Shown here: positions 26,888 through 38,000 of the stretch, piece after piece
Position numbering within the stretch: the stretch's first letter is position 1
How the letters are laid out: each line of letters begins with the position of its first letter
From: Flavobacteriales bacterium
GTDB lineage: Bacteria; Bacteroidota; Bacteroidia; Flavobacteriales_D; Crocinitomicaceae
DNA length: 38,000 bases
Assembly: GCA_947453715.1 (NCBI GenBank)
Contig: CANGHX010000006.1
Span: forward strand, 1 to 38,000
Reading direction: 5' to 3'
Translations under genes and position numbers: made by a program
Notes under the pieces: model-generated
Told to the model about the DNA's origin: nothing
What the model saw: the letters and a program-made list of their open reading frames with translations, nothing else
Databases searched by the model: none

Positions 26888-27427
26888 ATGAAATCTACCT
26901 TAAGTTATTATGAACAAGATGCTTCTGAGATGCTTTCTTTTAGAAAATTAACATTAAATGATGTTGAGTTATGGAGTCGATTTTTTGAAAATAATGATCG
27001 TGAACAATTTCTAGGTCCTGTAAATTCTGAATTAACTAATTTTCAAAAGGCTGATAATTGGATTACACGTCAAATTGAACGTTATGAATCTAATGAGTTT
27101 GGTCAATTAGCTGTTATTGATCAAGCATCAAATACACTAATTGGAGTAGGAGGTATAATTCCTCGGGATTTAGATGGAAAAATTGAATTTGAGATTTCCT
27201 ATTCTTTACTACCTAATAAATGGGGGAATGGATTTGCAACTGAAATAGCAAAACATTTTAAAAATTGGGCAATTTCAAATCAATTGGCAAATTCTATCAT
27301 TTCAATCATTCATGTTGACAATTTTCCATCCAAAAATGTTGCTTTAAAAAATGAAATGAAGTTTGATTTTCGTTCAATTTTCATGTCAATTCCTGTTGAA
27401 ATTTACCGTTTTGTGATTATCAAATAA
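26888..27427 (+). CDS. RimJ/RimL-type GNAT acetyltransferase
   Basis: The 179-residue protein shows the RimJ/RimL layout: LRKLTLNDVELWSRFFEN-like N-terminus, a central GVGGIIPRDLDGKIEFEISYSLLPNKWGNGFATE segment in which W-G-x-G-x-A-T-E binds acetyl-CoA, and the final SIIHVDNFPSKNVALKNEMKF. The target may be a protein N-terminus or a small molecule; it cannot be deduced. It is followed by a 93-base gap before the promoter of the sulfur operon. Confidence 0.8.
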   Translation: MKSTLSYYEQDASEMLSFRKLTLNDVELWSRFFENNDREQFLGPVNSELTNFQKADNWITRQIERYESNEFGQLAVIDQASNTLIGVGGIIPRDLDGKIEFEISYSLLPNKWGNGFATEIAKHFKNWAISNQLANSIISIIHVDNFPSKNVALKNEMKFDFRSIFMSIPVEIYRFVIIK

Positions 27428-27520
27428 TTTTCTTTTATTTTTTTTATATCCTGAAACCCGTATTAATATTGACTTATAATCTATTAAATCGATAGGATTT
27501 ATATAAAATATTCAAAAACG

Positions 27521-27552
27521 TTTGTTTATATGGAAATCTGTCCATAAATTTG
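27521..27552 (+). promoter_or_regulatory. Promoter of the sulfur-assimilation operon
   Basis: TTTG at 27521-27524, a 20-base spacer and TAAATTTG at 27545-27552 fit both elements of the Bacteroidota sigma-A promoter. Transcription should start near 27557-27560, about 25 bases before the leader peptide ATG. The 312-base gap between 27427 and 27740 thus holds this promoter, a leader ORF and an attenuator. I see nothing else in 27428-27520. Confidence 0.75.
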
Positions 27553-27582
27553 TCACGTTTTAAGGAAATAAGATAACGTAAA

Positions 27583-27639
27583 ATGAAAGCAATTAAACTA
27601 TTTAACATGATGATGTGTTGTAACATTCTTGAAGGATGA
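27583..27639 (+). CDS. Leader peptide with Met-Met-Met-Cys-Cys
   Basis: ATG 27583 to TGA 27637-27639 encodes 18 residues: MKAIKLFNMMMCCNILEG. Three consecutive Met codons (27607-27615) are followed immediately by two Cys codons (TGT TGT, 27616-27621). It begins about 25 bases after the predicted transcript start. It is followed by an intrinsic terminator and then by the first gene of sulfate reduction, whose end product is cysteine. Its last codons overlap the 5' arm of a predicted antiterminator. These traits are those of an attenuator leader peptide, whose translation speed reports the supply of Cys- and/or Met-tRNA. No stable product is expected. Confidence 0.75.
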   Translation: MKAIKLFNMMMCCNILEG

Positions 27640-27695
27640 TTGGTTGCTTTTGCAAATAAATAATCAAAAATCCTTCTACAAAACGAAGGATTTTT
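27631..27695 (+). promoter_or_regulatory. Transcription attenuator: mutually exclusive antiterminator and terminator
   Basis: GAAGGAT at 27631-27637 (last codons and start of the stop codon of the leader) pairs perfectly with ATCCTTC at 27670-27676. The stem is extended by GATT (27638-27641) with AATC (27662-27665) across a 4-base bulge, enclosing a small TTGC/GCAA hairpin (27644-27655). That 3' arm is also the 5' arm of the terminator at 27666-27695. A ribosome finishing at the stop codon would cover GAAGGAT and let the terminator form. A ribosome waiting at the Cys codons would have its front edge near 27631 and leave GAAGGAT free. The pairing is seen in the sequence; the mechanism is inference. 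Confidence 0.75.
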
Positions 27696-27699
27696 TTTT
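27666..27699 (+). terminator. Intrinsic terminator (attenuator) upstream of sulfite reductase
   Basis: A perfect 11-bp stem (27666-27676 with 27685-27695) with an 8-base loop ends in nine T residues (27691-27699). It lies 41 bases before the sulfite reductase ATG, inside the operon's own leader and 26 bases after the leader peptide's stop codon, so it acts conditionally rather than ending an upstream gene. Confidence 0.88.
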
Positions 27700-27739
27700 G
27701 ACAGTAAATAAAGAAATAACAAATTAAATAAAATATCAA

Positions 27740-29869
27740 ATGGAAAGCTTTTTATCAGAATTAGAAAACCCATTAGTTCAAAAAGATATTATTGAATTAG
27801 GAGATAAAATTGCAGCTTATAAAAGTGGAGAATTGAATGAAGATAAGTTCAAAGCTTTACGTTTAGCTAGAGGAGTTTATGGACAACGTCAACAAGGTGT
27901 TCAAATGATTCGAATTAAACTTCCCTTTGGTAGAGTTTCTGCAGATCAGCTAAGAAGGATATGTGATGTTTCTGATGAATATAGCACAGGGAATTTACAT
28001 ATCACAACGCGGCAAGATATTCAAATCCATTATGTGAGTTTAGATCGAACTCCACAATTATGGGCTGAATTGGAAAAAAGCGATGTGACTTTGAGAGAAG
28101 CGTGTGGTAATACTGTAAGAAATGTAACAGCAAGTCCATTAGCAGGTATCGATAAAAATGAACCGTTTGATGTTGCGCCATACGCTGATTTAGTTTTTAG
28201 ATACTTTTTAAGAAAACCATTTGGACAAGAATTAGGTCGAAAAATTAAGATTGCTTTTAGTTCAAATGATTTAGATGATGCATTTACATTTATACATGAT
28301 TTTGGATTTATTCCTAAAATAGAAAGTAAATTAGGAGTTGAGGTAAAAGGTTTTAAAGTTTTGATTGGTGGTGGATTAGGGGCTCAGCCATTTTTAGCGA
28401 AAGTTGGATATGAGTTTTTACCTGAAGAAGAATTAATTTCATTCTTGGAAGCAGCAGTTAGAGTTTTTGATAGACATGGAGAGCGTAATTCAAGACATAA
28501 AGCAAGAATAAAATATTTAATTGCTAAAGTAGGAATTGAAGAGTTTTTGAGTTTAGTAGAAGCTGAAAGAAAAGCGATTCAATACCAAGCAGAAGATTTC
28601 GTTTTGATTCCACAAGGTGAATTTAATGAAGTTCCAAAGTTTATTCTTTCAAAAGAAGAAGTTTTGAATGACATTGAAGATGCTGATTTCAAAAAATGGG
28701 TTGAAACAAATGTAGTTGAACAAAAACAAGCTGGATATTTTGCTGCTTTCGTAAAAGTATTGATTGGAAATTTCACAACTGAACAAGCAAGAAAATTAGC
28801 TTTAATTATAGAAAAATATACATCAGACGAAGCAAGGTTTACAATTGATCAAAGTGTTTTGTTAAAGTATATCTTACCAGAGAATTTGAAAGCTGTTTAT
28901 GAAGGATTAAAAGAAATTAATTTACATAAATCTGGTTATAATAGTGTGGCTGATGTTACAGCTTGTCCTGGAACAGATACGTGTAATTTGGGGATCTCAG
29001 ACTCAACTCATGTTGCAAAAGTGATTGAACAGTTAATTCAAGATGAATACCCTGAATATATTTATAATCAAGAGATTAAAATAAAAATAAGTGGTTGTAT
29101 GAATTCATGTGGTCAGCATGGTTTGGCACACATTGGATTCCATGGTAGTTCTCAAAAGGTAAATGGATTAACAGTTCCTGCTTTACAAGTATTATTAGGT
29201 GGAGGTAAACTAGGAAATGGATTTGGAAGAATTGCTGAAAAAGTAATTAAAATCCCAAGCAAAAGAGTTTTAGATATCATTCGTTATTTATTGAATGATT
29301 ACTCAGAGAACCAACTAGGAGATGAATTATTTAATGAATATTATGACAGACAAGGAAATAAGTATTTCTATGATTTATTAAAACCTTTGGCTGATACAAC
29401 AACATTAAAACCAGAAGATTTTATCGATTGGGGACAAACAGAGCAATTCAAGACAGAAATTGGAGTTGGAGAATGTGCTGGAGTATTAATTGATTTAGTT
29501 TCGACCTTGTTTTATGATGCAGAAGAAAAGTTGGATGCAGCTAAAACTTCTTTGAATGAAGGACGATTTGCTGATGCAATTTATCAATCATATGCTTCTG
29601 GAATTCATGCAGCTAAAGGGTTGTTGCTTCAAGCAAAGGTTCATTGTAATACACAGTCAGGAATTATTTCTGATTTTGATAAAAACTTTGAAAATCAATT
29701 TCAATTTGAGGGATATGAAAACTTTACAGATTTTATCCTACAAATCAATAAAAATGAACCTTCAGAAGTCTTTGCACTTGAATATAATAAACGAATGCAA
29801 ATCCTCTTAAATGAGGCTATAAAATACCGTTCAACTTTATTAACAATTGTTGAAAACGAAAAAGCATAA
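27740..29869 (+). CDS. Ferredoxin-dependent sulfite reductase with C-terminal HEPN domain
   Basis: The 709-residue enzyme reduces sulfite to sulfide with six electrons. The two nitrite/sulfite-reductase ferredoxin-like half-domains and siroheme/4Fe-4S repeats fill residues 1 to about 560. The N-terminal siroheme-contacting stretch is GNLHITTRQDIQIHYV. The cluster ligands are C409-x5-C415 (ACPGTDTC) and C453-x3-C457 (SGCMNSCGQHG). An extra C-terminal domain of about 130 residues (YDAEEKLDAAKTSLNEGRF, SYASGIHAAKGLLL) has the HEPN pattern, an arrangement seen in Bacteroidota. It is the first gene after the attenuator. Nitrite reduction is a formal alternative, but the sulfur gene context argues for sulfite. 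Confidence 0.9.
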   Translation: MESFLSELENPLVQKDIIELGDKIAAYKSGELNEDKFKALRLARGVYGQRQQGVQMIRIKLPFGRVSADQLRRICDVSDEYSTGNLHITTRQDIQIHYVSLDRTPQLWAELEKSDVTLREACGNTVRNVTASPLAGIDKNEPFDVAPYADLVFRYFLRKPFGQELGRKIKIAFSSNDLDDAFTFIHDFGFIPKIESKLGVEVKGFKVLIGGGLGAQPFLAKVGYEFLPEEELISFLEAAVRVFDRHGERNSRHKARIKYLIAKVGIEEFLSLVEAERKAIQYQAEDFVLIPQGEFNEVPKFILSKEEVLNDIEDADFKKWVETNVVEQKQAGYFAAFVKVLIGNFTTEQARKLALIIEKYTSDEARFTIDQSVLLKYILPENLKAVYEGLKEINLHKSGYNSVADVTACPGTDTCNLGISDSTHVAKVIEQLIQDEYPEYIYNQEIKIKISGCMNSCGQHGLAHIGFHGSSQKVNGLTVPALQVLLGGGKLGNGFGRIAEKVIKIPSKRVLDIIRYLLNDYSENQLGDELFNEYYDRQGNKYFYDLLKPLADTTTLKPEDFIDWGQTEQFKTEIGVGECAGVLIDLVSTLFYDAEEKLDAAKTSLNEGRFADAIYQSYASGIHAAKGLLLQAKVHCNTQSGIISDFDKNFENQFQFEGYENFTDFILQINKNEPSEVFALEYNKRMQILLNEAIKYRSTLLTIVENEKA

Positions 29870-29976: not shown

Positions 29977-30750
29977 ATGAATACAAATAAACAAAATAAT
30001 CCGAAAGTTACATTGGTTGGTGCTGGTCCTGGTGACATTGAATTGCTAACTATAAAAGGTTTGAAAGCAATTCAAAAAGCAGATGTAATATTGTATGATG
30101 CTTTAGTAAATGAAGAGTTGTTAAATGAAGCGCCAAACGCAGAAAAGATTTTTGTAGGAAAAAGAAGAGGGTTTAAAGCATATTCTCAAGAAGAAATCAA
30201 TCGATTAATTGTGGATAAAGCTTTTTTAAGTGGAAATGTAGTTCGATTAAAAGGTGGAGATTCGTTCGTTTTTGGAAGAGGCTCAGAAGAATTACACTAC
30301 GTTGAAGCTTTTGGGATTGAAACGGAAGTGATTCCAGGTATATCAAGTTCAATTTCAGTTCCTGCTTTAGCTGGGATTCCAGTAACTCATAGAGGAGTTA
30401 GTAATAGTTTCTTTGTATTATCTGGAACTTTATCAAATGGTGAATTAAATCCAGAAATAAAAGTAGCGACAAAATCTTCTGGGACGGTCGTTATATTAAT
30501 GGGTATTTCTAAATTGAACGAGATAGTTGATATTTATAAAAAATACGGAAAAGAGAACGAAGCAATAGCAATTATTTATAACGGTTCATTGCCTTCACAA
30601 TCAACTGTTGTTGGAACAATTGATTCGATTTCTGAAATCGCTGAAGCAAATAAAAATTCTGGGCCAGGAATTATAGTAATTGGTTCAGTGGTTGAAATTT
30701 CAGCAATTTATAATGACAGCAGTTATTTATTTGAGAAAATAGTACTGTAA
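29977..30750 (+). CDS. cobA: Uroporphyrinogen-III C-methyltransferase
   Basis: The 257-residue SAM-dependent enzyme methylates uroporphyrinogen III twice to give precorrin-2, the siroheme precursor that the preceding sulfite reductase needs. Family motifs are clear: VGAGPGDIELLTIKG near the N-terminus, VLYDALVN-like ILYDALVNEELL, VRLKGGDSFVFGRGSEE, and VIPGISSSISVPALAGIPVTHRG. The length is that of the single-domain enzyme (SumT/CobA), without CysG dehydrogenase-chelatase; that missing part is encoded separately at 34146-35633. A 107-base gap separates it from sulfite reductase without a terminator. Confidence 0.92.
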   Translation: MNTNKQNNPKVTLVGAGPGDIELLTIKGLKAIQKADVILYDALVNEELLNEAPNAEKIFVGKRRGFKAYSQEEINRLIVDKAFLSGNVVRLKGGDSFVFGRGSEELHYVEAFGIETEVIPGISSSISVPALAGIPVTHRGVSNSFFVLSGTLSNGELNPEIKVATKSSGTVVILMGISKLNEIVDIYKKYGKENEAIAIIYNGSLPSQSTVVGTIDSISEIAEANKNSGPGIIVIGSVVEISAIYNDSSYLFEKIVL

Positions 30751-30812
30751 TTTCTTTTGGCTACATGCAAATATATACACATACACAATTAACATTTAAA
30801 ACAGTAACAAGA

Positions 30813-33701
30813 ATGAAGACAAAATTACAAGCGTTTATTTTATTCCTAACGCTCTTTGGAGTTCAAACAGTCTTTTCACAAAATGGATTGATTCAACTTT
30901 CAGGGAAATTGGATGACAAATCGACTGGCCAACCTTTGGTTGGTGCAGTTGTAAAAATTAAAGATACCGATAATTCTGTTACAACAGATGCAGAAGGTAA
31001 ATTCACGATTAAGACAGCAAATGCTTTTCCTATTTTTATATTAATAAGTTTTGGAGAATATGAAAATCAAGAGTTTAAAATCGAAAATGAAAAATCACAA
31101 TTGAATTTTCAGTTAGAGCCAAAATCGATTTTAACCAATACAGTTGTTGTATCTGCATCGAGAATTAGTGAGAATATCTTAAAATCTCCAGTAGCAATTG
31201 ATAAATTGGATATTAGAGCATTGAGAGAAACTCCTGCTCCGACATACTATGATGCAATTGAAAACGTAAAAGGTGTTCAGTTGACAACTTCAAGTTTAAC
31301 TTTGAAAGTACCAAATACGAGAGGTTTCAACTCTCCAAATAACTTTCGTTTCATGCAGTTAGTAGATGGTGTTGATTTACAGGCTCCAACATTAGGTGTT
31401 TCAATTGGTAATACAATCGGACCAAACGAATTGGATATCAAAAGTGTTGAAATTATACCTGGAACTTCTTCAGCGTTGTATGGTATTAATTCAATTAATG
31501 GTTTAGCGAATTTACAAACTAAAGACCCTTATTTAAACCAAGGAGCAAGTGTTTATCAAAGAACTGGTATTAATCATGTAGACAATAAAGATCATGGTTT
31601 AAGTTTTCTAGGTGAAACAGCGTTTCGTGTAGCAGGAACAGTTGATTCAGCAAAAAGAATTGCCTATAAAGTGAATGGTTCTTATTTTCAAGGGGTTGAT
31701 TGGGTTTCATCTAATTTGACAGATCAAAATCCTTATAATTTAACTACATCAAATCCAAATTATCCTCAATTCAGTTCTGCAGACATTAATCCTGCTTATG
31801 ATGGATGGAATCGTTATGGAGATGAAAAAAACAATACAGTTACCGATACATTGAAACATGGAGCGACTAAAGAGGTTTTTAATGTTCGAAGAACAGGTTA
31901 TAGTGAGAAAGATTTAGTGAATCCTACAGTGAAAACAATCAAATTTGATGCAGGATTATTTTATAAATTTAAAAACGATGCTCAAATTAGTTATGTATAC
32001 CGTTTAGGGACTATGGATGGAGTTTTCCAAAGAGGAAATAAAATTCAATTGGATGGTTTATTACTTCAAAGTCACGCTTTAGAGTATAAAGGAAAAAAAT
32101 TGACAGCAAAAGTATATGCAAATTCTGAGGATACTAAAAACTCATACAATTTAAAACCATTAGCAGATAATTTAGATTTAACATTTAAATCAAATAAACA
32201 ATGGGCTAAAGATTATCAAACAGCATTAAACTCAGCATATACGTCAAATGGTGGGGATTTAACTGCAGCACATGAAGCAGCAAGAGCAGCAGCAGATGCT
32301 GGAAGACCAGAACCAGGTTCAGATTTATTTAATCAACGTAAAGAAACAATTATTGGGATAAATAACTGGGATCATCCTACTTTGTATCCTTACGTTTCAG
32401 CTCAAGATCCAACAAATACTACAGGTGGTGCGGCATTATGGCAAAAAAGTAAAATGTATCATGGAGAGGTACAATATGATTTATCTTCAGTAACAAAAAA
32501 CTTTGTGAATGTTTTAGTTGGTACCGATGCTCGTTTGTATACTATTTTACCTGATGGAAATAACTTTGTTGATTTTACAAAACCGTTATCGGAAAGAAAT
32601 ACTCCAGGTGGAAATAATGTAACGTACACTAAATTTGGAGGTTTTGCTCAAGTGAGTAAAGAGTTATTTGATCAAAAATTAAAGTTGGTAGGTTCTTTAA
32701 GATATGATAAAAACCTTGACTTTGATGGAAAATGGAATCCTAGAATTGCAGCGGTTTATTCTCCTAATAAAAAGAGTTCAATTCGTATCTCTGGACAGAA
32801 TGGATACAGATTCCCAGCACTATTCGAAGCATTATCTTATGTGAATAATGGAGGTGTAAGACGTGTTGGTGGATTAGAAAAAGTGAATGAAGGATTAAAT
32901 TATTTAGATAATTCATATACGCAAACTTCAATTGACGCATTTCAAGCTGCTGTAAAAGCAGATATTAAAGGTGGTTTGACTTCTTCTCAAGCAATCGCTA
33001 AAGAACAAGGTAAATTAGTAGTTGCTAATTTACAAAGAATGCAGCCTGAACAAGTGAAAGCGTTGGATTTAGGTTATAAAGCTGTATTTTTTAACAATCA
33101 TTTTGTAATTGATGCTGATGCTTACTTTAATGAATACAAAGGATTCTTAGGTCAAATTGAAGTTGCAGTTCCAAATGGACACACTGTTGGTACAATTGAG
33201 GCAGCAACAGATGCGAATAATAAAGCAAATCAAACAAGATATAGAGTTTATACAAATGCAACAAATACATATTATGGTTATGGATCTGCAATTCGTTTAA
33301 GCTATAATTTCTTAGGGAAATATTCAATTTCAGGAAACTTTAATTACAATGATTTCCAAGCGAAAGAAAAAACTGATATTTTTACAACAGCATTCAATAC
33401 GCCAAAATATTCAGCTAACATCCAATTTGGAAATAGAGAAATAGTTAAAAATTTAGGATTTAATATTGTTTGGAAATGGCAAGATGCTTACGATTGGCAA
33501 AGTCCATTAGCTAACGGTAGAGTTGCTGCATATAGTACTTTTGATGCTCAAGTTTCTTACAAATTAGAGAAAGCGCATACAAATATTAAAGTAGGTGGAA
33601 CGAATATCTTTAACAGACGTTATTTCCAATATGCTGCAGGACCAAATATCGGAGCATTATATTATGTTAGTTTAACATTTGATGCACCTTTTAAAAAGTA
33701 A
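30813..33701 (+). CDS. TonB-dependent outer-membrane receptor in the sulfur operon
   Basis: The 962-residue receptor starts at ATG 30813 (MKTKLQAFILFLTLFGVQTVFSQ, a signal peptide); the frame upstream to 30765 is not supported. The mature N-terminus has a carboxypeptidase-regulatory-like domain (about 26-100: GKLDDKSTGQPLVGAVVKIKD, TDAEGKF). A plug (about 115-235: VVVSASRISENILKSPVAIDKLD, IIPGTSSALYGINSINGL) and the 22-stranded barrel follow. It imports a ligand through the outer membrane using TonB energy. Its place between siroheme genes and sulfate-activation genes suggests a sulfur compound (a sulfonate or sulfate ester), but the ligand cannot be read from sequence. Confidence 0.88.
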   Translation: MKTKLQAFILFLTLFGVQTVFSQNGLIQLSGKLDDKSTGQPLVGAVVKIKDTDNSVTTDAEGKFTIKTANAFPIFILISFGEYENQEFKIENEKSQLNFQLEPKSILTNTVVVSASRISENILKSPVAIDKLDIRALRETPAPTYYDAIENVKGVQLTTSSLTLKVPNTRGFNSPNNFRFMQLVDGVDLQAPTLGVSIGNTIGPNELDIKSVEIIPGTSSALYGINSINGLANLQTKDPYLNQGASVYQRTGINHVDNKDHGLSFLGETAFRVAGTVDSAKRIAYKVNGSYFQGVDWVSSNLTDQNPYNLTTSNPNYPQFSSADINPAYDGWNRYGDEKNNTVTDTLKHGATKEVFNVRRTGYSEKDLVNPTVKTIKFDAGLFYKFKNDAQISYVYRLGTMDGVFQRGNKIQLDGLLLQSHALEYKGKKLTAKVYANSEDTKNSYNLKPLADNLDLTFKSNKQWAKDYQTALNSAYTSNGGDLTAAHEAARAAADAGRPEPGSDLFNQRKETIIGINNWDHPTLYPYVSAQDPTNTTGGAALWQKSKMYHGEVQYDLSSVTKNFVNVLVGTDARLYTILPDGNNFVDFTKPLSERNTPGGNNVTYTKFGGFAQVSKELFDQKLKLVGSLRYDKNLDFDGKWNPRIAAVYSPNKKSSIRISGQNGYRFPALFEALSYVNNGGVRRVGGLEKVNEGLNYLDNSYTQTSIDAFQAAVKADIKGGLTSSQAIAKEQGKLVVANLQRMQPEQVKALDLGYKAVFFNNHFVIDADAYFNEYKGFLGQIEVAVPNGHTVGTIEAATDANNKANQTRYRVYTNATNTYYGYGSAIRLSYNFLGKYSISGNFNYNDFQAKEKTDIFTTAFNTPKYSANIQFGNREIVKNLGFNIVWKWQDAYDWQSPLANGRVAAYSTFDAQVSYKLEKAHTNIKVGGTNIFNRRYFQYAAGPNIGALYYVSLTFDAPFKK

Positions 33702-33710
33702 AATAAAAGA

Positions 33711-34097
33711 ATGAAAAAAAAGTTTATAAACATTTTATTCCTTTTCAGTACGTTTTCTGTTTTTGCTCAACAGCAAGAACAGAAAACGGCTGTTTTTAAT
33801 ATAGAAGGACAAATAGCAGTTGCTACAGATGGAAAAGGAGCATTTCTGAATTTGGGTGGTCCAAATGTGAAGTTCAATTTTAGTAAAGTTGCGGTAGCTA
33901 TAAACTTCATGCCTTCTCTTCGTTTTCAAGAAGATAAAGTGAAAAGTTTTGTAACACCAATGTTAGGTTTTGGACCACAATTTTATTTTTTAAAAAATAA
34001 GAGAACAATTTTGAGTTTTCCAGCATATTATAATACATCAAATAACCTATGGATTTTTACTGCAGGAATTGGTTATGTTTTAAAAAAATCAAAATAG
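33711..34097 (+). CDS. Small exported, barrel-like protein of unknown function
   Basis: The 128-residue product begins with a signal peptide (MKKKFINILFLFSTFSVFAQ). The rest is made of short amphipathic strands with G/N/P turns (FLNLGGPNVKFNFSKVAVAINFMPSLRF, FVTPMLGFGPQFYF, LWIFTAGIGYVLKK), as in small outer-membrane barrels. It follows the TonB-dependent receptor after 9 bases and precedes the CysG-N/TSUP fusion by 48, so it is part of the sulfur operon. I do not recognise the family; it may accompany the receptor in the outer membrane. Confidence 0.7.
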   Translation: MKKKFINILFLFSTFSVFAQQQEQKTAVFNIEGQIAVATDGKGAFLNLGGPNVKFNFSKVAVAINFMPSLRFQEDKVKSFVTPMLGFGPQFYFLKNKRTILSFPAYYNTSNNLWIFTAGIGYVLKKSK

Positions 34098-34145: not shown

Positions 34146-35633
34146 ATGAATACAACTAAAAAAGATAAAAACGAATTATTCCCAGTTTTTTTAAAACTGA
34201 ACGAATTAAATGTTTTAATTATTGGTGGTGGAAAAATAGGTTTGGAGAAATTATCATCTGTAATTTCAAATTCTCCTTTGAGCAGAGTGAAAGTTGTTGC
34301 TATTTCCTTCATCGATGAGTTGAAACAATTCGTAGAATCTTATCCTTTAGTTGAATTGATTGAATCTGAGTTCAAAGATGAACATTTAGAAGGGATTCAA
34401 ATTGTTATTTCTGCTTTGAATAATGTTGAATTATCCGAGCAGATTAAAAGAACAGTAAACCAGAAAGGGATTTTATACAATGCAGCGGATAAACCTGAAT
34501 TATGTGATTTTTACCTTGGTTCTACCGTTACAAAAGGAAATTTAAAAATCGGAATTTCGACAAATGGCAAGTCACCAACTGTCGCAAAACGATTAAAAGA
34601 AATATTTAATGACAATATTCCAAATGAAATAGATAATTCATTGGAGAATTTAAGTAAAATAAGAAATCATTTGAAAGGTGATTTTCAACGTAAAATTGTA
34701 CAATTAGATAAGATTACAAGTGAATTAAAAGAAAATAAAGCAAAAGCTTGGTATCATTTTAGTTTTAAAAAAGTGTTTGGCTATGCAGCTTCGATTATCG
34801 GAATTATGCTTGCAGGACATTTGTTATTTACAATTATCCCTTTAGAATCAATTTGGAGTAAAACGGGAGAATTGGCTTCAACCTTAAATATCGATTTTGT
34901 ATATTTTATGATCGGTGGATTTATTGCTCAAATGATCGATGGTGCACTTGGAATGGCTTATGGTGTGAGTGCGACAACTTTCTTGTTGTCTTTTGGAGTT
35001 ACTCCTGCAGTTGCAAGTATGAGTGTTCATACTTCTGAAATATTCACTAGTGGTGTTTCGGGTTTTATGCATTTAAGATTTGGAAACGTTAATAATAAAT
35101 TATTTAAAACCATTTTAATTCCTGGAGTTATTGGTTCAATTCTAGGTGCATACATTTTGTCTGAGTTTGAAAATTATAATACATATATAAAACCGGTGGT
35201 TGGAGTTTATACATTGATTTTGGGGATCATAATTATACACAAGGTTGTCAAAAAGAACACAAGACGTAAAAAAGTCAGTCATGTAGGTTGGTTAGCAACT
35301 GCAGGAGGATTTTTAGATGCAATCGGTGGAGGAGGATGGGGGCCTGTTGTTTCTTCAACGTTGATTGCAAGAGGAAAAAATCCAAGGCTAATAATTGGTT
35401 CAGTTAATTTGGCTGAGTTTTTTGTCTCGTTAGCAAGTTCATTTACTTTTTTTACTTTAATCGGTACTTCTCATTGGCAAACATTTGTTGGTTTAATTTT
35501 AGGAGGTGTTTGTGCAGCTCCAATTGCAGCATACCTGTCGAGAAAATTAAATGTAAAAGCAATGATGTTAATGGTTGGAATTATAATAATTATTGTTAGT
35601 TTAAGGATTATAATTATGACTATTTTAAAATAA
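34146..35633 (+). CDS. Fusion: siroheme synthase (CysG-N) dehydrogenase/ferrochelatase domain with TSUP (TauE/SafE) transporter
   Basis: The 495-residue protein joins two functions. Residues 1 to about 200 form a precorrin-2 dehydrogenase/sirohydrochlorin ferrochelatase domain: the NAD-binding LIIGGGKIGLEKL near residue 20, the NAADKPELCDF loop, and ISTNGKSPTVAKRLKE. Residues from about 207 form a membrane protein of the TSUP family with two similar halves (FMIGGFIAQMIDGALGMAYGVSATT and WLATAGGFLDAIGGGGWGPVVSS). The first domain turns precorrin-2 into siroheme, completing the job of cobA. The second probably moves sulfate or sulfite across the inner membrane. The cytosolic linker (about 185-207) is Lys-rich. 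Confidence 0.88.
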   Translation: MNTTKKDKNELFPVFLKLNELNVLIIGGGKIGLEKLSSVISNSPLSRVKVVAISFIDELKQFVESYPLVELIESEFKDEHLEGIQIVISALNNVELSEQIKRTVNQKGILYNAADKPELCDFYLGSTVTKGNLKIGISTNGKSPTVAKRLKEIFNDNIPNEIDNSLENLSKIRNHLKGDFQRKIVQLDKITSELKENKAKAWYHFSFKKVFGYAASIIGIMLAGHLLFTIIPLESIWSKTGELASTLNIDFVYFMIGGFIAQMIDGALGMAYGVSATTFLLSFGVTPAVASMSVHTSEIFTSGVSGFMHLRFGNVNNKLFKTILIPGVIGSILGAYILSEFENYNTYIKPVVGVYTLILGIIIIHKVVKKNTRRKKVSHVGWLATAGGFLDAIGGGGWGPVVSSTLIARGKNPRLIIGSVNLAEFFVSLASSFTFFTLIGTSHWQTFVGLILGGVCAAPIAAYLSRKLNVKAMMLMVGIIIIIVSLRIIIMTILK

Positions 35634-35652: not shown

Positions 35653-36531
35653 ATGAAAAAAGTATATTTAAGTGATTCAGGACCAGTAACATCAGATTCT
35701 ATTTATAGTTTTTGGAGATGGAGTGAAGCAAATGATTTGACTAGTGAGAAAATTGAAGACATTACAAATTACTGTTTAGACTTAGGGATTACAGGATTTG
35801 ATTTGTCAAACTCATATGGACTAGGAAGAGTTGAAGAATTATTCGGAAATGCGATTGCGAATAAATCATTGAAAAGAGATGAATTTGTTTTGTTTTCAAA
35901 AGTTGGATATAAATCGAATGATCCTCAAACAGGTAAAATAATTTATAATCAACTGACTGAAAAGTATTTAGTTAAAACAGTTGAAGATTCTTTGAAAAAA
36001 CTGAATACAGATTACATTGATGTTTTATTGTTGAAAGATTATGATCCGTTAATGAAAGCGGAAGAAGTTGTCTCAGCTTTAAACAAGTTAGTGTATAGTG
36101 GAAAAGTAAAACACATCGGTATTTCTGATTTCAATGTGTTTGAACATCAATTACTTTCTAATTTATCATTGGATATTGTGACAAATCATTTTGAATTGAA
36201 TTTATTTAATTCTTCAGCTGTTCATGATGGCCGATTAGCATTTGCGAAAGAGAAATATGTTAAACCAATGGCATGGGCTCCTTTAGCAGACGGAAGAATT
36301 TTATACGGACATGATAATGAAGCTTTAGCAATTAGAGATATATTAAGCGATATAGCTTTAAAGTATGATTCTAATATTGAACAGATTGCTGTTGCTTGGA
36401 TTCATAAATTAGGAGCTCTTCCAATTATAGGAAGTTTAAATAAAGAAAGAATTAAAAATGCAGCTACAGCTAGTGAAGTTAAACTTTCGCATGAAGATTG
36501 GCATAGAATATATAATGTTACCAAAAGATAA
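35653..36531 (+). CDS. Aldo/keto reductase-like protein with catalytic His replaced by Lys
   Basis: The 292-residue protein has the AKR (beta/alpha)8 pattern. Catalytic D50 and Y55 lie in GFDLSNSYGLGRVEELFG and K83 in FSKVGY, but the position of the catalytic His is Lys (K128 in VLLLKDYDPLMK, where relatives have LLLHRPDPLM). NADPH-side motifs GISDFN and VAWIHKLGALPIIGS are present. Overall resemblance is to the YdhF-type AKRs. It is 19 bases after the transporter fusion and 67 before cysH, within the sulfur operon. The substrate is unknown and activity may be altered. Confidence 0.8.
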   Translation: MKKVYLSDSGPVTSDSIYSFWRWSEANDLTSEKIEDITNYCLDLGITGFDLSNSYGLGRVEELFGNAIANKSLKRDEFVLFSKVGYKSNDPQTGKIIYNQLTEKYLVKTVEDSLKKLNTDYIDVLLLKDYDPLMKAEEVVSALNKLVYSGKVKHIGISDFNVFEHQLLSNLSLDIVTNHFELNLFNSSAVHDGRLAFAKEKYVKPMAWAPLADGRILYGHDNEALAIRDILSDIALKYDSNIEQIAVAWIHKLGALPIIGSLNKERIKNAATASEVKLSHEDWHRIYNVTKR

Positions 36532-36598: not shown

Positions 36599-37279
36599 AT
36601 GAAATTAAACAATATCGAAGAACTTTCTTTGGAAGAAGTATTGAAGGAAATAGCAACTCAATATGGAGATAAAGCTGCTTTTTCAACTAGTTTGAGTTGG
36701 GAAGATCAGGTTATTTCACATCATATTTTTGCTAATAATCTTCCAATTCGTGTTTTTACTTTGGATACAGGAAGAATGTTTCCTGAAACGTACAACGTAT
36801 TAAATAGAACAAAAGATCGATATGGAAAAGTGATTGAAGTCTATTTTCCGAATAATGAATCGGTTGAAAAATTGGTTACTTCAAAAGGTCCTTTGAGTTT
36901 CTATGAATCTTTAGAAAACAGAAAAGAATGCTGTAATATTCGAAAAGTTGAACCATTAAATAGAGCATTAAAAGGAGTCGAAGTTTGGATTACTGGTTTA
37001 AGAGCAGAACATTCTGATAATAGAAAAGACCTTTCGATAGTAGAGAAAGATGATCAGAGAAATATTATTAAAGTGAATCCATTATTGAATTGGTCGTTTG
37101 AAGAAGTGAAAGCGGAAATATCAAAGCACAATATTCCATATAATATTCTTCATGATAAAGGTTTTGTAAGTATTGGATGTCAACCGTGTACAAGAGCAAT
37201 AAAAGAAGGAGAAGATTTCAGAGCCGGAAGATGGTGGTGGGAAGATACAAGTAAAAAAGAATGCGGATTGCATTCGTAG
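36599..37279 (+). CDS. cysH: Adenylyl-sulfate (APS) reductase, CysH family
   Basis: The 226-residue enzyme reduces adenylyl sulfate to sulfite. It has the PP-loop-derived AFSTSLSWEDQ segment and the C-terminal catalytic KKECGLH (C222). Two cysteine pairs, C111-C112 (KECCNIRK) and C194-x2-C197 (GCQPC), bind the 4Fe-4S cluster; this set separates APS reductases from cluster-free PAPS reductases. The cofactor-type call is therefore APS, and no APS kinase is needed upstream in the window. It lies between the aldo/keto reductase gene and the cysD gene, from which it is separated by the minisatellite at 37281-37410. Confidence 0.92.
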   Translation: MKLNNIEELSLEEVLKEIATQYGDKAAFSTSLSWEDQVISHHIFANNLPIRVFTLDTGRMFPETYNVLNRTKDRYGKVIEVYFPNNESVEKLVTSKGPLSFYESLENRKECCNIRKVEPLNRALKGVEVWITGLRAEHSDNRKDLSIVEKDDQRNIIKVNPLLNWSFEEVKAEISKHNIPYNILHDKGFVSIGCQPCTRAIKEGEDFRAGRWWWEDTSKKECGLHS

Positions 37280-37280
37280 C

Positions 37281-37410
37281 GACGAATTGCAATTCGTCAC
37301 AACAATGCAATTCGTCCCAACAATTCAAACCGTCCCAACAATTCAAACCGTCCCAACAATGCAATTCGTCCCAACAATGCAATTCGTCCCAACAATGCAT
37401 TCGTTCCAAT
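37281..37410. repeat. 18-bp minisatellite preceded by an 18-bp palindrome
   Basis: GACGAATTGCAATTCGTC (37281-37298) is a perfect palindrome. From 37295 the unit CGTCCCAACAATGCAATT (18 bases) repeats six times (one unit short by one base) plus a partial unit up to about 37410. Two middle units carry the variant ending TTCAAAC instead of TGCAATT. The array lies wholly between the cysH stop and the cysD start. An open frame on the minus strand reads through it as a repeated Cys-Trp-Asp pattern but is a by-product of a period divisible by three. Confidence 0.85.
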
Positions 37411-37437: not shown

Positions 37438-38000
37438 ATGAGTAAAATAAATTATTTAGATGAATTAGAAGCAGAAGCAATTTACATTTTACGTGAAGTT
37501 GCTGGTCAATTTGATCGTCCTGCTTTATTATTTAGTGGTGGTAAAGATAGTATCTGCTTAGTTCATTTAGCGCTTAAAGCATTTCGTCCTGGTAAATTCC
37601 CATTTCCATTAGTCCATGTAGATACAGGTCACAATGCACCTGAAGTGATTGCATACAGAGATAAATTAGCTGAAAAGTTAGGTGAAAAATTAATTGTTCG
37701 TAAAGTAGAAGATACTATCAAAGAAAGAAATCTTCAAGATGGAAAAGGAAAATTCCCAAGTAGAAATCCTTTACAAACGTATACTTTACTAGATACAATT
37801 GAAGAATTCGAATTTGATGCTTGTATTGGTGGAGCTAGAAGAGATGAAGAGAAAGCAAGAGCAAAAGAGCGTATTTTCTCAGTAAGAGATGAATTTGGAC
37901 AATGGGATCCTAAAAAACAACGTCCTGAGTTATGGAATATCTATAATGGTAAAATTGATAAAGGTGAGAACGTTCGTGTATTTCCAATCAGTAATTGGAC
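37438..38000 (+). CDS. cysD: Sulfate adenylyltransferase small subunit, partial
   Basis: ATG 37438 opens MSKINYLDELEAEAIYILRE and runs off the right edge after 187 complete codons of a protein usually near 300 residues. The PP-loop SGGKDS is at residues 33-38, followed by VDTGHNAPEVIAYRD and GGARRDEEKARAKERIFS, all conserved in CysD. With CysN (expected downstream) it makes adenylyl sulfate from ATP and sulfate for the APS reductase encoded just upstream. Confidence 0.93.
   Translation, partial: MSKINYLDELEAEAIYILREVAGQFDRPALLFSGGKDSICLVHLALKAFRPGKFPFPLVHVDTGHNAPEVIAYRDKLAEKLGEKLIVRKVEDTIKERNLQDGKGKFPSRNPLQTYTLLDTIEEFEFDACIGGARRDEEKARAKERIFSVRDEFGQWDPKKQRPELWNIYNGKIDKGENVRVFPISNW

Follow-up and report, generated by a model that had tools for sequence, protein, structure and literature searches.

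What controls the sulfate-assimilation operon of this Crocinitomicaceae genome, and does the short cysteine- and methionine-containing reading frame in front of it take part in this control? The window, which is the whole stretch of DNA analyzed here, comprises 38,000 nucleotides, and all coordinates refer to it. For positions 27521-27739 a preliminary description had proposed a Cys/Met leader-peptide attenuator. From the data given below we estimate a probability of roughly 90% that this element works by ribosome-mediated transcription attenuation, which would allow transcription of the sulfate-assimilation operon when cysteine, and probably methionine too, is scarce.

Architecture of the leader region and the downstream operon

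The leader region lies on the forward strand and begins with a Bacteroidota-type promoter (27521..27552), in which a TTTG element (27521-27524) is followed after a 20-nt spacer by TAAATTTG (27545-27552). From this arrangement, transcription would start near 27557-27560. The leader peptide ORF MKAIKLFNMMMCCNILEG (18 codons, 27583..27639) extends from an ATG at 27583 to the stop codon TGA at 27637-27639 and contains the putative control codons Met-Met-Met-Cys-Cys (27607..27621; Met 27607-27615, Cys 27616-27621). Antiterminator arm 1 (27631..27646) consists of GAAGGAT (27631-27637) plus an extension. Its potential partner is the shared arm 2 (27662..27676), which involves AATC (27662-27665) and ATCCTTC (27670-27676) and has arm 1 and arm 3 as alternative pairing partners. 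The alternative pairing is extended by GATT (27638-27641) and AATC, and a second copy of GAAGGAT at 27685-27691 competes with the first one for ATCCTTC. The intrinsic terminator (27666..27699) carries an 11-bp stem (27666-27676/27685-27695) and nine T residues (27691-27699). It starts 29 nt 3' of the leader stop codon, and the distance between this stop codon and the reductase start is 100 nt. Direct reading of the sequence thus located every element that had been listed before, namely promoter, ORF, terminator and competing arms.

Two additional features were observed in the leader. A helix resembling the protector of classical attenuators (helix P) can form between 27585..27596 and 27640..27651, the 3' arm being located immediately 3' of the stop codon, and by eye a similar pairing was seen at two other loci (L005, L009). 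Moreover, a second tiny ORF (MIGCFCK, 27636..27659, forward strand) with two Cys codons overlaps the leader stop codon with its ATG (ATGA), but diverged relatives do not retain this ORF. The folding energy of the whole leader was unremarkable (z -1.48), and this parameter is too weak as a test of the leader; the decisive evidence comes from comparison with other genomes. Rfam searches at the gathering score gave no match in this window, including the SAM riboswitch aptamer and Bacteroid-trp.

The genes downstream are all encoded on the forward strand. The operon starts with a HEPN-domain sulfite reductase (27740..29869; Pfam NIR_SIR, NIR_SIR_ferr and HEPN), which is followed by cobA for the uroporphyrinogen-III C-methyltransferase of siroheme synthesis (29977..30750; TIGR01469 above cut-off), a TonB-dependent receptor (30765..33701; PF00593, PF07715), a precorrin-2 dehydrogenase fused to a TauE/SafE sulfite exporter domain (34146..35633; TIGR01470, PF01925), an aldo/keto reductase (35653..36531; PF00248) and the (P)APS reductase gene cysH (36599..37279; NF002537 and TIGR02055 above cut-off). 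A reading frame that runs past the window end (37439..38000) probably encodes a cysD-like sulfate adenylyltransferase subunit, as judged from a motif and its context. These Pfam and TIGRFAM profile matches agree with the earlier proposal that the downstream genes serve sulfate assimilation and make sulfide. In a sister genus (g10), the homologue of the aldo/keto reductase is the first gene of the operon and carries the leader there. Inside the operon, the TonB-dependent receptor is accompanied by a 128-residue protein without family match (30765-34097), and these two proteins may serve in the uptake of a sulfur compound. The interval from cysH to the cysD-like gene contains a tandem array with 6.8 copies of the 18-bp unit TGCAATTCGTCCCAACAA (37288-37409).

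Conservation of the leader and coupling of the Cys codons to the alternative pairing

The reductase is present in 11 of the 12 genomes of the genus. In close species the leader is nearly identical, yet the sequence 5' of the promoter has diverged. A species at 85% protein identity carries the leader MIQMCQNMMCMCSSLRRD with the arms AGGGATT, AATCCCT and GAGGGATT. Compared with the window, these arms involve one A-to-G change in arm 1 that is accompanied by fitting changes in the other two arms, and such double-sided compensatory changes are few inside alignable groups. Two species at 73% identity encode MKKMTNNMM[H/P]CCFHLMD, and in each of the two the antiterminator arm fits the terminator of that species. 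Three species of the genus (genomes G087, G045, G069; loci L006, L007, L008) lack the leader and have a promoter-like element directly 5' of the reductase gene. The leader is therefore not universal even within the genus, and these species, which either lost the leader or never had it, form a natural comparison group. As a side observation, four loci (L032, L033, L034, L050) are located on contigs of metagenome-assembled genomes that are titled Candidatus Kuenenia, Chryseobacterium gleum, Actinomyces viscosus or Chitinophaga pinensis. The reductases on these contigs are 68-98% identical to those of this genus; the contig titles look wrong.

Across the class, reductase loci were gathered by family, order and class searches, and their upstream stretches were scanned for short Cys-containing ORFs that have an intrinsic terminator 3' of them; Met was not a criterion. 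Since the scan demands both Cys codons and a terminator, a false-negative rate derived from it would be biased. Such an ORF with a terminator was detected in at least 72 of 159 distinct HEPN-type sulfite reductase loci, and a relaxed scan added five more (L060, L131, L134, L144, L146). When adjacent Cys codons plus a terminator were counted at the 159 loci, 89 units (72 loci) were found on the coding strand vs. a single one on the opposite strand. The corresponding numbers for adjacent Met codons were 42 and 0, and other residue pairs gave 0-22 units on the coding strand. The leaders consist of 15.5% Cys and 12.4% Met residues. A TTTG/TAnnTTTG-like promoter was present within 150 nt upstream of 30 of the 89 units (2.8 expected).

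The same architecture recurs in 17 family groups (78 non-redundant leaders). Examples are MIKKNFMRQMPMQLCCMSRMGQRKE in the sister genus, where it stands 5' of the aldo/keto reductase, MVLIPNACFVACCCCCPTPPSGRQSAVS in family f9 and, in family f31, MMCCMMCI followed by MCMCCMMYLRMR. All loci of families f9, f22, f42, f47 and f54 carry the leader, and none of the 29 loci of families f24, f27, f63 and f77 does; for 20 loci of leader-less families Rfam yielded no substitute regulator. When mapped onto the reductase tree, presence of the leader is clustered, with many changes of state nonetheless (13 changes vs. 25 for shuffled labels), a count that includes two mislabelled rows, since L003 carries the leader and L043 has an MCIPCP ORF with a terminator below threshold. 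The preliminary description had made its reading depend on conservation of the Cys/Met codons and of the alternative pairing in relatives, and both of them recur in the 17 family groups.

To quantify the alternative pairing, we took, in the 78 non-redundant leaders, the sequence that separates the densest Cys cluster from the terminator and compared it with its dinucleotide shuffles. The densest cluster was used because a start after the very last Cys codon misses leaders with internal Cys runs (near-zero z). Here, arm 1 and the 5' arm of the terminator were complementary with a mean z of -2.39 (Fisher p 4e-46), and p<=0.05 was reached in 45 of the 78 leaders vs. 3.9 expected, so that some 40% of the individual leaders miss this level. 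For the window, z-values of about -4.2 to -4.4 were obtained. The mutually exclusive pairing of GAAGGAT and ATCCTTC is thus borne out both by the sequence of the window and by complementarity beyond chance across leaders.

The position of arm 1 follows the Cys codons. In 54 of the 78 leaders arm 1 starts 11-20 nt past the last Cys of the cluster (19.4 expected). When the distance from a Cys codon to arm 1 was measured without presuming the cluster, we obtained a median of 16 nt (IQR 14-19). In contrast, the position of arm 1 relative to the stop codon varies widely (IQR 1.5-23, range -9 to 39 nt), and this difference indicates that arm 1 is locked to the Cys codon and not to the stop codon. 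When 74 leaders were aligned on arm 1, Cys accounted for 53-62% of the codons 15-23 nt upstream, and Met for 24-39% in several bins 15 to 32 nt upstream. The terminator starts 20-61 nt 3' of the stop codon and never closer than 20 nt (78 leaders). The front edge of a ribosome lies about 12 nt past the start of the A-site codon. The distances fit a ribosome that, with a Cys codon in its A site, would just clear arm 1 and would be expected to cover it on moving. This geometry of the 78 leaders supports the front-edge argument made earlier for the window, in that the alternative pairing sits where the Cys codons predict it.

Next to the geometry, we folded the nascent RNA ending before arm 3 under constraints that place a ribosome in silico. 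In these models the mean antiterminator probability of the 78 leaders amounted to 0.62 for a ribosome positioned on the last Cys codon, 0.45 two codons on, 0.19 four codons past the last Cys and about 0.10 further on. In 55 of the 78 leaders the value at Cys was more than 0.2 above the value for the stop codon, and in no leader was it lower. For the window, predicted probabilities were 0.97 at Cys12, 0.96 at Cys13, 0.99 at Met9 and 0.00 at the stop codon. The modeling thus reproduced the difference between Cys codons and stop codon (0.97 vs. 0.00) that the preliminary description had postulated. Without a ribosome, the antiterminator of the window reached 0.27, and helix P 0.70 in the nascent and 0.94 in the complete transcript. 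In the equilibrium of the full-length RNA, the terminator was favoured in every state (median 0.94), and therefore the switch would have to act kinetically during transcription.

Proposed mechanism and alternative explanations

Taken together, these data suggest the following scenario. The polymerase would be trailed by a ribosome that translates the leader ORF. During a shortage of charged Cys-tRNA this ribosome would wait at the Cys codons with its front edge just 5' of arm 1, so that arm 1 could pair with the nascent arm 2, no terminator would form and the operon would be read. With plentiful cysteine, the ribosome would reach the stop codon and cover arm 1; arm 2 would then pair with arm 3 and transcription would end at the T tract. 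The postulated parts of this scenario are that the ORF is translated, that the ribosome stalls when Cys-tRNA is short, that antitermination is kinetic and that Met is a co-signal. Cys appears to be the best-supported control residue, and enrichment of Met suggests that methionine might be sensed as a second amino acid. Of the joint Cys/Met sensing that had been claimed, the Cys part is backed by codon asymmetry and arm geometry, and for the Met part we infer a role from the enrichment.

A simpler explanation would be that the hairpin terminates the upstream GNAT gene, or is a constitutive weak terminator, and that the short ORF occurs by chance. In fact, the GNAT gene has the same orientation and ends at 27427, and the folding energy of the whole leader is not exceptional. 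However, a promoter-like element separates the GNAT gene from the hairpin, the leader is kept among close relatives while the upstream sequence diverges, the opposite strand yields 1 unit vs. 89, and the position of arm 1 is tied to the Cys codons. We regard this explanation as very unlikely for the window, and as a general account it is refuted by strand asymmetry and arm geometry. The Cys-rich ORF might also act in mycobacterial style, by translational coupling or Rho and not via an intrinsic terminator. Mycobacterial cys operons with Cys leader peptides and no obvious terminators are a precedent (PMC1262725), and some Bacteroidia poly-Cys ORFs lack a terminator as well (L171, L205). Against this stands that in the surveyed leaders the stop codon is followed by an intrinsic terminator at a distance of 20-61 nt and a complementary arm lies at the ribosome edge. 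Moreover, 100 nt to the reductase start are too far for stop-start coupling. Thus, this route is quite unlikely.

The attenuator reading assigns the stall to the supply of Cys-tRNA. The nascent peptide, or oxidative or metal effects on Cys decoding, could stall the ribosome instead and the switch would then be a stress sensor. Any loss of charged Cys-tRNA could affect the decoding of poly-Cys, and the present data do not separate these causes. However, the sequences surrounding the Cys run are very different from peptide to peptide, which is not the case for arrest peptides, and the regulated genes make sulfide; we consider a stress sensor unlikely. That the peptide itself acts in trans, or as a Cys-rich metal or redox product with an incidental terminator, appears hardly credible. 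Trans-acting leader peptides are known (peTrpL, PMC7298713), but there is little peptide similarity outside the Cys/Met cluster, TGT and TGC vary at 8 of 24 conserved Cys columns (one duplicated group removed), and the position of the cluster is fixed to the RNA arm and not to the peptide ends. Equally remote is a ligand-binding riboswitch for SAM or another compound. Sulfur genes are often controlled by SAM riboswitches, and one locus (L178) has a SAM riboswitch elsewhere in its stretch. However, Rfam was negative in the window and at the leaders of 20 other loci, and the conserved features are codons and simple arms but no aptamer. The SAM riboswitch of L178 (L178:3006-3106) is located 5' of a sulfate operon for which a Cys leader was found as well.

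Relation to known systems, serial units and a probable second layer of control

The proposed attenuator resembles the trp, his, leu and ilv leaders of Proteobacteria and the ilvB leaders of Actinobacteria, since all of them combine control codons in a leader ORF, a terminator, a mutually exclusive antiterminator and an operon for the same amino acid. Unlike these classical attenuators, the leaders described here involve Cys and Met as control residues, Bacteroidota promoters and often two complete units in series, and arm 1 is often located inside the ORF right after the Cys run. The Bacteroid-trp motif is a leader-peptide attenuator of the same phylum. It is represented in Rfam as RF01692 (PMC2864571), and leader-peptide attenuation was also inferred at the 5' regions of amino-acid operons of Flavobacterium psychrophilum (PMC9723704). 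The mechanism class is probably the same, but those systems relate to other amino acids; the main text names no Cys/Met case and the Rfam models had no match here. With the mycobacterial cys operons, for which Cys leader peptides without terminators have been noted (PMC1262725), the window leader shares Cys runs in a short ORF 5' of cysteine or sulfur genes. The mycobacterial leaders were later termed translation attenuation (as cited in PMC13236596) and are leaderless or lack conserved terminators, whereas an intrinsic terminator and an antiterminator are present here. The window leader thus differs from the mycobacterial poly-Cys type, which is defined by absence of a terminator and coupling to the start codon. 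Short ORFs ending in seven Cys codons were observed about 2.2 kb (L171) and about 1 kb (L205) upstream of the reductase in families f14 and f72; they have no strong terminator and may represent a variant without terminator, similar to the mycobacterial leaders.

In the literature that was searched we found no Cys/Met attenuator in Bacteroidota, but an earlier mention is possible and priority is not certain. The mechanism class is known, but the terminator-based Cys version, its distribution in Bacteroidota and the serial arrangement seem not to have been described in the papers searched. Very probably, the window leader is one member of a widespread type of Cys (probably Cys/Met) attenuator that controls sulfate assimilation in Bacteroidota, and these bacteria very probably make sulfide only when cysteine runs short. 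This would provide a concrete answer to the question of how many Bacteroidota gate assimilatory sulfate reduction and would extend classical terminator-based attenuation to cysteine as a sensed amino acid. The leader peptides are far below the usual annotation limits and thus standard annotation would miss this regulon.

Two complete units in series were found at 16 loci of eight families, after the unit at -4424 of L121 and that of L193 had been discarded as spurious from an initial count of 17 serial loci. Terminator 1 and the second ATG are separated by a gap of 4-123 nt. A promoter match is present 5' of unit 1 in all but one of these 16 loci and none was found inside the gap, so that transcription must pass both terminators. 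The Salmonella mgtCBR operon is also controlled by tandem attenuators with two short leader ORFs acting successively (PMC3641672), but its signals are different and the sequences are unrelated, whereas here both units carry Cys control codons. The serial loci are natural examples of same-signal attenuators in series, the response of which is open to modeling.

Eight genomes contained 74 genome-wide matches to MMCC or MCCM codon patterns. Among the 60 loci that were read, the setting of ORF plus terminator was found only at the reductase operon or at cysC. Seven cysC (APS kinase) genes in families f31, f47 and f54 have their own MCCMMCC-type leader with a terminator (L352, L353, L354, L358, L359, L361, L362). 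No Cys leader was detected at 30 cysD loci of leader-less genomes or at 44 PALP/PLP-enzyme loci (PF01053 and PF00291 genes) of five genomes. We lean towards a sulfur regulon of Bacteroidota in which the reductase operon and a separate cysC are under Cys/Met attenuators. Many lineages would have two complete Cys attenuators in series behind a single promoter, so that RNA polymerase would have to pass two Cys checks with a multiplicative, sharper response, and a single leader would read both sulfur amino acids.

A second layer of control may operate further upstream. The palindrome TCTATTAAATCGATAGG (27480..27496) is located 5' of the promoter, about 100 nt upstream of the leader ATG. The pattern YCTAY-N5..7-RTAGR was found in 42 of 158 loci (1.3 expected from shuffles), and it occurs upstream of reductase operons with or without the leader. 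From this distribution the palindrome is probably a transcription-factor operator and would represent a control layer separate from the attenuator. Perhaps it is bound by a sulfur regulator of the Rrf2 type, a link that we infer; in some genomes a gene of the Rrf2 family lies next to the operon, and in this one it is located elsewhere.
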